Of a stretch of 43,833 bases of DNA, positions 32,177-35,627 are shown piece after piece (within the stretch, counting starts at the first letter, position 1; every line of letters starts with the position of its first letter). The stretch is taken from contig JAKJBU010000005.1 of the NCBI GenBank assembly GCA_022706825.1, positions 695-44,527 of the forward strand, in the 5' to 3' direction. The notes under the pieces were generated by a model. That model was not told where the DNA came from and searched no databases. It saw only the letters and a list, made by a program, of their open reading frames with translations. The DNA is from Bacillota bacterium (GTDB lineage: Bacteria > Bacillota > Clostridia > Lutisporales > Lutisporaceae). Both the position numbers and the translations under genes were made by a program.

Positions 32177-32277
32177 CAGCTTCACGGTTACCATTTTTAA
32201 AAGCCTTGCATAGTATGTATTATAGTACAGCTGTTGCTTTTCGATATAACAATATATCGGGAGGCAATTTATATAAA

Positions 32278-32306
32278 GAGGTGCGGCGCAAGCCGTACCT
32301 TTTGTT
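32278..32306 (+). terminator. Terminator after the glycan operon
   Basis: AGGTGCGGC (32279-32287) and GCCGTACCT (32292-32300) pair with one wobble around a GCAA tetraloop, followed by TTTTGTT. Confidence 0.7.
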
Positions 32307-32333
32307 ATCTTGAGGCCGGCAATGGCACGGATA

Positions 32334-32360
32334 ATTCCGACTAAAAAAGTAGAAATTAAT
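32334..32360. promoter_or_regulatory. IscR/Rrf2-like operator, copy 1
   Basis: This 27-base segment has the core CCGACT...AGTAG and matches the segment at 32399-32425 at 22 of 27 positions. It ends directly before the -35 box of the iron-sulfur operon. The GACT half-site resembles the type 1 IscR motif of enterobacteria. Confidence 0.6.
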
Positions 32361-32361
32361 A

Positions 32362-32390
32362 TTGACAATGTTTTTCTGATATGGTAACCT
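32362..32390 (+). promoter_or_regulatory. Sigma-A promoter of the iron-sulfur operon
   Basis: A perfect -35 TTGACA (32362-32367) is followed after 17 bases by a weak -10 TAACCT (32385-32390). It lies between the two operator-like repeats. Confidence 0.6.
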
Positions 32391-32398
32391 TAAATTGA

Positions 32399-32425
32399 AA
32401 TCCGACTTAATAGGTAGGAATTAAT
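32399..32425. promoter_or_regulatory. IscR/Rrf2-like operator, copy 2
   Basis: CCGACTTAATAGGTAGG lies within a 27-base repeat of the site at 32334, with centres 65 bases apart (about six helical turns). It overlaps the expected transcript start, the usual place for a repressor site. Confidence 0.65.
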
Positions 32426-32439
32426 AAGGAGCTGATAAT

Positions 32440-32880
32440 ATGATATTATCAACCAAGGGAAGATATGGACTCAAAATTATGTATGAGCTTGCTTTGAACT
32501 ACGGGGAAGGGCCGATGCCCCTGAAAGAAGTAGCTCAGAGGCAGCAGCTTTCCGAAACCTATCTGGAACAGCTTATAGCCCATCTGAAAAAGGCCGGGCT
32601 GGTTAGAAGCATCAGAGGTGCTCAAGGGGGATATGAGCTGATAAGAAAACCCGAAGAGATTTCAGTGGGGGAAATAATAAGGACTCTTGAAGGCCCCCTG
32701 GCTCCGTCGGAATGTGTAATGGATAATGAGCCGGAGTGCACAAAAGCTGAAAACTGTGTAACAAGATTGATTTGGGAAAAAATAATGGAAGGCATCAATA
32801 ATGTGGTAGATTCAATAACATTGAATGATATGGTAAATGACTATTATAAGCTTAAACGAAAGAAAGAAGGAGAGAAATAA
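32440..32880 (+). CDS. iscR: Rrf2-family regulator, IscR-like
   Basis: This 146-residue winged-helix Rrf2 protein begins [18 protein letters not shown]. Three cysteines, Cys92, Cys100 and Cys106, fall at or near the positions that bind the [2Fe-2S] cluster in IscR (92, 98 and 104 in E. coli), so it probably senses iron-sulfur status. It heads an operon with iscS, iscU and mnmA, and two operator-like repeats flank its promoter, implying autoregulation. CymR (a cysteine regulator) is a relative, but it lacks the cysteines. Confidence 0.88.
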
Positions 32881-32881
32881 T

Positions 32882-34075
32882 ATGGACGGCATAAGAGGAA
32901 TTTACATGGATCATGCAGCTACAACCTATACAAAAAGAGAAGTACTGGAAGAAATGCTTCCTTTCTTTACCGAGTACTTTGGGAATCCTTCAAGCATACA
33001 CAAGTTCGGACGAGACGTGCGCAAGCATGTGGATACTGCCAGGGAAAGGGTTGCCAAGGCATTAGGTGCGGACCCTTCAGAAATATATTTTACTGCAGGG
33101 GGCTCTGAAGCAGATAACTGGGCGGTAAAAGGCACGGCATATGCCAACAAAAGCAAAGGCAATCATATAATAACTACAAACATTGAACACCACGCCCTTT
33201 TGCATACTTGTGAATACCTGGAAAAGGAAGGCTTTGAAGTAACATACCTGCCTGTAGATGAGTATGGTTTGGTAAGCGTTGAGGATGTAAAAAACGCAAT
33301 AACTGATAAGACAATACTGATTTCCATTATGTATGCCAATAATGAAATCGGTACGATACAACCCATAGAAGAGATAGGAAAGCTGGCAAGGGAAAAGGGC
33401 ATATACTTCCATACTGATGCAGTGCAGGCGGTAGGGAGTGTTAAAATTGATGTAAAGGAACAGAACATTGACATGCTCTCGCTTTCCGCACATAAATTCT
33501 ATGGCCCTAAAGGTATAGGGGTACTTTATGTGAGAAAGGGAGTAAAGCTTATAAACTTTGTTCATGGGGGCGGTCAGGAAAGAGGAAGAAGAGCGGGTAC
33601 GGAAAATGTTCCGGGGATTATAGGGCTTGGAAAGGCTATTGAGCTTGCAAACGAAAATCTGGAAGAGAGCAGCAAAAGGATAATGGGCCTGAGGGATAAA
33701 TTGATAAAGGGCTTAATGGATAAGATACCCTATACAAGATTGAACGGACATCCGGTCAAAAGGCTTCCGGGAAACGCCAATTTCAGTTTTCAGTATATTG
33801 AAGGAGAGTCACTGCTTCTGAATCTGGATATGAAAGGTATTGCCGGTTCCAGCGGCTCGGCATGTACTTCGGGATCATTGGATCCTTCCCATGTGCTGCT
33901 GGCTATCGGTCTGTCCCATGAAATAGCCCATGGATCGCTGAGATTGTCCCTGGGTGCCGTAAATACCGAAGAGGACATAGATTATGTCCTGGAAGTATTG
34001 CCGGAGATAGTGGAAAGGCTGAGGCAGATGTCTCCGTTGTATGAGAAGGTTAAAGGGGGAAATACTAATGTATAG
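32882..34075 (+). CDS. iscS: Cysteine desulfurase (IscS/NifS)
   Basis: This 397-residue PLP enzyme takes sulfur from cysteine as an enzyme persulfide for iron-sulfur assembly and tRNA thiolation. The PLP lysine is Lys205 in [10 protein letters not shown], and the sulfur-carrying Cys328 is in [22 protein letters not shown] near the start is typical. The open frame extends to 32837 within iscR, but ATG 32882 has AAGGAGAG seven bases before it. The start is one base after the iscR stop, and the end overlaps iscU. Confidence 0.95.
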
Positions 34076-34517
34076 TGAAAAAGTTATGGATCATTTTTCA
34101 AATCCGAGAAATGTCGGTGAAATAGAGGATGCCAGCGGTGTAGGCGAAGTAGGCAATGCCAAGTGCGGCGATATAATGAAGATTTATCTGAAGATAGAAG
34201 ATAACATCATAAAGGACGTTAAGTTCAAGACCTTTGGATGCGGTGCCGCAATAGCCACAAGCAGCATTGCCACTGAAATGATAAAGGGCAGGACGGTAGA
34301 GGAAGCCCTTGAACTTACAAATAAAGCTGTAGTTGAGGCTCTTGACGGACTGCCTCCCGCAAAAATACACTGCTCTGTACTGGCTGAAGAAGCTGTTAAA
34401 GCTGCAATTGAGGATTACATGAAAAAGCAGGGTAAGGAAGTAGAATCCTCTGTATCAGCCGGGATTGAGCCTGATGAAGAAGCATGCTGCAGTAAATGTG
34501 AGCGGAAGTGTCATTAG
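34068..34517 (+). CDS. iscU: Iron-sulfur scaffold protein IscU/NifU N-domain
   Basis: This 149-residue protein has an N-terminal IscU-type scaffold domain ([18 protein letters not shown]). The three cluster cysteines are in NAKCGD, FGCGAA and [13 protein letters not shown]-terminal extension carries a second cysteine group ([13 protein letters not shown]) of unclear use, possibly metal binding. ATG 34068 overlaps the iscS stop by eight bases, with AAAGGGGGA upstream; the frame upstream to 34041 is not used. It receives sulfur from IscS. Confidence 0.93.
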
Positions 34518-34547: not shown

Positions 34548-35627
34548 ATGAAGAAGAGAGTTGTAATAGGTATGAGCGGCGGAGTTGACAGCTCTGTCGC
34601 TGCTTACCTTCTAAAACAGCAGGGATATGATGTAATTGGAGTTACCATGCAAATATGGCAGGATAAGAGCAAGGAAGCCCTTGAGCGTGAAGGAGGCTGC
34701 TGTTCTTTATCTGCTGTGGAGGATGCCAGAAGGGTATGCGCTAAAATTGACATACCCTTTTATGTTATGAACTTTAAAGAGGTATTTGAAAAGCTGGTTA
34801 TTGATTATTTTGTTGATGAATATCTGACAGGAAGGACTCCGAATCCGTGTATAGCCTGTAACAAATTCATAAAATTCGATGCGCTTTTGGAGCGCTCCAA
34901 GGCTTTAGAGGCAGAATACGTTGCTACGGGACATTATGCAAGAATACAGTACGATGAAAATCTGAAGAGATACGTTATCAGAAAATCAGCAGCTCCCGAT
35001 AAAGACCAGACATATGTGCTTTATAATCTGACTCAGGAACAGCTCAGGCATATACTTATGCCCTTGGGGGACTACAACAAGAGTCAGGTCAGGGAGATAG
35101 CCAGGGGATTGGACCTTAGAACGGCCAACAAGCCTGAAAGCCAGGAAATCTGTTTTGTTGAAGATAATGACTACGGAAGGTTCATAAGCGAAAGAAAAGG
35201 AAGCGAAATCAAGCCGGGATATTTTGTGGATACACAAGGAAGAAGGCTCGGTACTCATAAGGGAATAGTCCATTACACGGTTGGTCAGCGCAAGGGCTTG
35301 GGAATAGCCTTTGGAAAGCCTATGTATGTAGTCGAAATAATTCCCGATAAAAACCTTGTAGTACTTGGAGATGAGGCTGAGGTATTCAGCAGTGAGCTTG
35401 TTGCAAACCAAATGAACTATATTGCCTTCGAGAAGCTTGAAGGAGCAATAAATGTGAAGGCAAAAATAAGATACAGTGCAAAAGAAGCAGAAGCAACGGT
35501 CACACCCATAGACAATGAAAGAGTGAGAGTAGTGTTTAAGGAACCTCAGAGGGCAATCACTCCCGGACAGGCGGTTGTATTCTACCGGAAAGATATGCTG
35601 GTTGGGGGAGGAACTATAGAGAAGTAA
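34548..35627 (+). CDS. mnmA: tRNA-specific 2-thiouridylase
   Basis: This 359-residue ATP-pyrophosphatase family enzyme makes 2-thiouridine at the wobble position of Lys, Glu and Gln tRNAs. The PP-loop is [11 protein letters not shown] (8-18). The catalytic cysteines are Cys101 (TPNPCIACN) and Cys202 (QEICFVED). The C-terminal beta-barrel ends GGGTIEK. Sulfur would come from IscS in the same operon. A decayed copy of its 3' part is present near 43521. A strong terminator follows. Confidence 0.96.

Follow-up and report, generated by a model that had tools for sequence, protein, structure and literature searches.

Predicted IscR-type operators on both sides of an iron-sulfur operon promoter in a clostridial genome, with a candidate third site at cysE

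The fourth cluster ligand of Escherichia coli IscR is a histidine (H107), which lies three residues past the third cysteine. An IscR from a Gram-positive genus, that of Thermincola potens, was reportedly described in a paper of 2014. PDB entry 4CIC is the T. potens regulator, according to the available part of PMC4618611. Both paired iscR operators and a clostridial iscR element are already in print, the former for Pseudomonas aeruginosa, where two type-1 sites around the -35 box mediate repression of the operon by its own IscR (PMC6599224), the latter in a paper that describes a conserved promoter element of clostridial iscR and reports the IscR and CymR motifs to be similar (PMC3828012; accessible text of both papers). 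CymR itself is described as not binding a cluster (available part of PMC9338935).

Regulators of the type found at the present locus are encoded in Clostridium perfringens (cpe1786-1783), C. difficile (CD630_12780-12800) and C. acetobutylicum (CAC1675), and the gene order is also the same, rrf2-iscS-iscU-trmU in C. perfringens and regulator-iscS-nifU in C. difficile, as far as the accessible accounts go; these accounts give no base-by-base map of operators. The C. perfringens operon is induced 3-6-fold on cysteine limitation, and cysE of this organism is listed as T-box controlled (accessible text of PMC2940859).

The iscR operon and the repeats at its promoter

The DNA analysed (43,833 nucleotides from a member of the Lutisporaceae; the window) carries on its + strand an iscR-like gene of the Rrf2 family (32440..32880, 146 aa), the cysteine desulfurase gene nifS/iscS (32882..34075; TIGR03402, 642 bits, above cut-off), the Fe-S scaffold gene nifU/iscU of clostridial type (34071..34517; TIGR03419, 226 bits, above cut-off) and mnmA for tRNA 2-thiouridine synthase (34548..35627; NF001138, 454 bits, above cut-off), which is likely to be the final gene of an iscR-nifS-nifU-mnmA operon. 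The regulator gene thus comes first in an operon with a desulfurase and a scaffold gene, as is characteristic of iscR. A terminator-like hairpin (32276..32303, + strand) separates the upstream gene from the iscR promoter.

This promoter has a -35 box TTGACA (32362..32367, + strand), which was read from the sequence and is kept at the same offset by relatives, and, after a 17-bp spacer, an extended -10 element TGGTAACCT (TG-G-TAACCT, 32382..32390, + strand; TG at 32382-32383, TAACCT at 32385-32390). The -10 hexamer is weak (three of six consensus positions) and the iscR promoter is absent from the list of a generic promoter scanner; it was called because of the consensus -35 box, the TG extension, the 17-bp spacing and the conservation in relatives. 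Transcription is predicted to start near 32397.

An earlier note had drawn attention to two 27-base segments with 22 identities and a CCGACT core on either side of the -35 and -10 boxes, and the observation was confirmed. The 27-mers from 32334 and 32399 (offset 65) are identical at 22/27 positions and both contain CCGACT; none of 150 dinucleotide-shuffled versions of the 263-nt intergenic region contained a pair with more than 20/27 identities, so that the observed value was never equalled. No further 27-mer on either strand of the whole window matched either repeat at more than 18 positions. Each repeat contains an imperfect 25-bp palindrome, AATTCCGACTAAAAAAGTAGAAATT in the upstream predicted operator O1 (32333..32357, + strand, centre 32345) and AAATCCGACTTAATAGGTAGGAATT in the downstream predicted operator O2 (32398..32422, + strand, centre 32410). 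The end of O1 is separated from the -35 box by 4 bp; O2 lies directly downstream of the -10 element and covers the predicted transcription start. Relative to a start near 32397, this would place O2 at about +1 to +25 and O1 at about -64 to -40.

Similarity to the enterobacterial type-1 consensus ATASYYGACTRWWWYAGTCRRSTAT (17/25 for O1, 16/25 for O2) was rejected as evidence, since the scores of O1 and O2 are equalled at 80 and 258 window positions, which is chance level; a search with the consensus gave no match at up to three mismatches. Because such identity is common by chance, the link to IscR was based on conservation and gene context. The earlier note had thought a type-1-like motif notable in a clostridium, a view that was not upheld: sites at iscR promoters are the rule there, and the element has been published (accessible text of PMC3828012).

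Conservation and spacing of the sites

Upstream regions were sampled from 61 related genomes, 80 named loci and an even class sample (59 loci with scores from about 180 bits upwards, in genomes not sampled before). Eleven loci were left out as genome duplicates (L035-L042, L048, L049, L066), as were L001, L002, L032, L033 and L034 (a duplicate, a paralogue or of doubtful IscR identity); L003 and L004 had been dropped earlier. Sites were scored with a position weight matrix (PWM) for a centred, symmetrised 25-mer, and a site was counted at a score of at least 12 within 220 nt upstream of the regulator; the 99.9% level in shuffled 220-nt regions was 10.6. O1 and O2 score 23.2 and 28.0.

Sites were found upstream of the regulator in 18/18 own-family, 74/78 other and 49/59 class-sample loci (the remaining 10/59 gave none), which amounts to 141/155 sampled loci, or 140/154 after removal of one duplicate (L075 = L129). 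The 14 loci without a site include two cysteine-less paralogues, and 141/153 three-cysteine IscR-like genes across Clostridia are thus preceded by a site (one locus counted twice). A previous count of 91/96 was partly circular, because the downstream sites that it comprised had also served to train the PWM; the 59 class-sample loci are independent of this training. O1 and O2 both conform to the clostridial iscR-promoter palindrome TCCKAST-N5-ASTMGGA, which is conserved upstream of iscR orthologues. The motif search in Clostridia that the earlier note had proposed as a check turned out in favour of its reading of the repeats as binding sites for the neighbouring IscR-like protein; the conservation of the sites, together with the three cysteines and Glu43 of that protein, supports this reading at the level of sequence.

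The O1/promoter/O2 layout was found in 32 loci, including Thermincola, Desulfofundulus, Peptostreptococcaceae and families f22 and f49; 105/155 loci have a single site. Within the family of the window, O1 reaches a score of at least 12 in 9/18 loci and is lost or decayed in the other nine; it is gone in one genus. O2 appears to be the core operator, and O1 a putative auxiliary site that was gained and lost between lineages. In other lineages the second site overlaps the -35 box or stands near the downstream site. C. difficile and relatives (L076, L079, L092, L114, L165) carry an extra, weaker IscR-type site, the left half of which is the -35 sequence TTGACA/T.

The distance of 65 bp between the centres of O1 and O2 is as the earlier note had given it, whereas "near an integral number of helical turns" was generous, since 65 bp corresponds to 6.2 turns at 10.5 bp. 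Among 18 lineage representatives the O1-O2 spacing ranges from 57 to 76 bp (57-77 across all 32 loci), and the Rayleigh R of 0.41 at 10.5 bp is no better than at other periods. O1 stands 14-18 bp from the -35 box in 16/18 representatives (11 and 26 in the exceptions; about 17 bp in the window), and the distance from the -35 box to O2 is 42-57. As O1 tracks the -35 box while the O1-O2 spacing varies, we infer that the promoter, and not a loop, sets the distance. In family f22 (L119, L122-L124, L127) O1 lies 26-27 bp from the -35 box, about one helical turn beyond the usual position of about 17; this offset was not used as evidence for phasing, because it concerns one lineage and the Rayleigh value is equally high at other periods.

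These distances bear on how the two sites might act. Joint action of O1 and O2 by cooperative binding or by looping set by helical phase, as the earlier note had suggested, would suit the 32 loci in which both sites enclose the promoter, and in P. aeruginosa binding at site B aids binding at site A, although the authors do not separate stepwise from cooperative binding (accessible text of PMC6599224). The spacing, however, shows no phase preference over 57-76 bp in the 18 representatives, it is the distance from O1 to the -35 box that clusters, 105/155 loci manage with a single site, and the P. aeruginosa sites abut at 25 bp (same text); helical phasing was therefore rejected, and the joint mechanism is considered quite unlikely. 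O1 might instead serve mainly as a promoter upstream (UP) element or activator-contact site, with O2 as the sole operator. It is AT-rich and docked on the -35 box, in L008 and L009 its distal CCGACT half is lost while the proximal half is partly (L008) or largely (L009) retained, and the displacement by about one turn in f22, albeit in a single lineage, would fit such a role. In distant families, however, O1 retains both half-sites of the 25-bp palindrome with scores up to 28.9, more than an AT-tract needs, so that this explanation is also regarded as unlikely. Finally, O2 is palindromic and lies at the predicted transcript start, where it could form an RNA hairpin at the 5' end instead of a DNA operator; against this, the same element occurs as O1 before the promoter, untranscribed from that promoter, and nothing in the window matched an Rfam family at the gathering score, which makes an RNA element extremely improbable.

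The regulator, its paralogue and the site at cysE

Membership of the window protein in the Rrf2 family is clear (PF02082, 150.3 bits, cut-off 30; TIGR00738, 139.3 bits, cut-off 73.3). Its score against the IscR equivalog TIGR02010, a model that may be better suited to proteobacterial IscR, stayed below the cut-off (126.6 against 207.55 bits), as did that against the CymR model NF047409 (157.2 against 195 bits), which nevertheless exceeded the IscR score. The protein contains C92, C100 and C106 in Cys-x7-Cys-x5-Cys spacing and Glu43; all four residues are invariant in 15/15 aligned relatives (alignment A1), which agrees with the earlier note's remark on three cysteines suited to a cluster. Three cysteines are present in 153/155 sampled proteins, the remaining two being cysteine-less paralogues, and YLE in the Glu43 region is found in 153/153 three-cysteine proteins. 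At the position of the E. coli histidine ligand the 153 sampled proteins have R (96), K (42) or, once, H; with R/K in 138/153 and the E. coli-type histidine absent, the clostridial cluster is probably held in another way than in E. coli. A nifS gene lies downstream of the regulator in 49/59 class-sample loci (about 600 bases examined per locus).

The genome of the window also encodes a cysteine-less CymR-like paralogue (L002, G000:C156) beside cysK; with no cluster cysteines and this neighbour it has both hallmarks of CymR, which the window protein, with three cysteines and nifS as neighbour, has not. In close relatives the cysteine-less Rrf2 gene beside cysK is preceded, immediately before the start codon, by a conserved element of its own of the AAAACATATTGGAATAGTAGGAGAT type (L002:1466-1490, also L034 and L254-L263). 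This element resembles the IscR motif yet differs from it, and is possibly a CymR operator.

In the own assembly (1.8 Mb, 71% complete), model R1 found only O1 and O2 (150 of 523 first-look candidates scored). A pattern search at up to three mismatches gave 67 places, compared with 174 in a backwards control, and weak pattern matches were therefore taken as noise. Apart from O1 and O2 read on the reverse strand, four places had two mismatches, and their PWM scores were 10.2, 10.4, 8.4 and 21.1, the last one at cysE; the motif is thus essentially confined to the iscR promoter and cysE in this assembly. The predicted third operator (L209:1501-1525, G000:C158, - strand) lies downstream of a promoter of the form TTGACA-N17-TATTAT; its end is 3 nt ahead of a T-box leader (L209:1253-1498), which precedes cysE. 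The T-box match (71.9 bits, E 3e-14) remains below the gathering score of 93, which is exceeded in two family homologues.

The cysE site was found in 15/18 family loci examined, as a rule at a constant 30 nt from the start of the -35 box, and in the non-family genomes G056, G057, G116 and G294. Outside the family (f1), a site of at least 12 was present in 2/12 cysE loci and 2/33 further upstream stretches; at 4/45, the cysE link is limited to a few lineages. Matches of relatives inside genes or without clear cysE context were set aside (L193, L214, L216, L217, L220, L221, L222). A search of open-access papers gave none that links IscR to cysE in clostridia.

The paralogue provides a different candidate for the binding protein: if it bound the sites, the operon would be a target of a cysteine repressor and not autoregulated by IscR. 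The reported similarity of the CymR and IscR motifs (PMC3828012, accessible text), the NCBIfam CymR model as top match even for the window protein, and the position of the third site at cysE, a cysteine gene, are in line with this. The promoters of cymR-like genes in the own family, however, carry the different element and score only -8.8 to 8.2 with the IscR PWM (12 f1 loci). Of 35 genomes searched, 16 contain just one protein that matches the CymR-like profile A3, the three-cysteine IscR itself, and all 16 keep the iscR site. In a tree, the cysteine-less proteins, including L170 and L171, grouped in a separate clade that excludes the window protein; the branch of the E. coli row in this tree is very long and its placement unsure. 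Control of the operon by the paralogue is accordingly judged very unlikely. As for cysE, the site is present in genomes G001, G005, G056 and G057 (95-99% complete), in each of which the three-cysteine protein alone matches the CymR-like profile; with no CymR-like paralogue detected, IscR is the likelier binder of the cysE site there.

Proposed circuit and comparison with known systems

From the conserved sites, their positions, the gene context and the cysteines and Glu43, we infer with high confidence that the IscR-like protein encoded just downstream uses O1 and O2 as its operators and that iscR-nifS-nifU-mnmA is under negative autoregulation. When Fe-S clusters are plentiful, cluster-loaded IscR would bind and repress the operon: at O2 (about +1 to +25) one dimer would block transcription initiation or escape, and a second dimer at O1 (about -64 to -40, against the -35 box) would strengthen repression. 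With clusters, iron or cysteine in short supply, the cluster would be lost or altered and the operon derepressed. Repression and signal are modelled on IscR of E. coli and P. aeruginosa (PMC12594620, PMC6599224) and on the induction by cysteine limitation in C. perfringens (PMC2940859), each from the accessible text; repressor function is an assumption, and the position of O1 alone would be compatible with an activating role. An operator of this type at the cysE promoter, before the T-box, would link cysteine synthesis to the same signal. On balance we incline to the view that the family's IscR-type regulator controls both its own Fe-S operon (two operators) and cysE (one operator before the T-box), that an Fe-S cluster sensor gates sulfur supply when transcription starts and charged tRNA gates it during elongation, and that the cluster is held without an E. 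coli-type histidine.

What had been noticed by eye as a repeat can now be described as a defined, if predicted, IscR operator of clostridia, with a rule for its position. Paired operators around iscR promoters occur widely, vary between lineages and take their spacing from the promoter, not from the helical phase. Conservation of the cysE operator suggests that some clostridia may couple cysteine synthesis to Fe-S demand through IscR and a T-box. The O1/O2 arrangement is real, ordinary in kind and common in clostridia, while cysE seems a modest and less expected new regulon link.

Among proteins of known structure, T. potens IscR (4cic) was the top match of the window protein (159.7 bits) with the Glu43 region aligned, followed in the same comparison by Bacillus subtilis CymR (125.0 bits) and E. 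coli IscR (83). The crystallised T. potens sequence has serines at the three cysteine positions, and the aligned residue at the E. coli histidine-ligand position is lysine, as with R/K in the clostridial proteins. In Thermincola ferriacetica, a species of the same Gram-positive genus, locus L082 has the same O1/-35/-10/O2 layout with a spacing of 69. CymR of Bacillales (2y75, 3t8r) shares the Rrf2 family with the window protein and, according to the available part of PMC3828012, a similar DNA motif; the window protein differs in its three conserved cysteines and its place in an Fe-S operon.

The iscR promoters of E. coli and P. aeruginosa, like the one proposed here, belong to autoregulated isc operons with two sites per promoter. 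Their sites share the core geometry YYGACT-N5-AGT with O1 and O2, and the clostridial PWM gave scores of 14.3 for P. aeruginosa site A and 9.9 for E. coli site B. P. aeruginosa site B lies at the -35 box, carries TTGACC and can be likened to the extra site of C. difficile type. The arrangement differs in that the E. coli and P. aeruginosa sites abut (25 bp), upstream of and across the -35 box, whereas O1 and O2, at a distance of 65 bp, enclose the core promoter.
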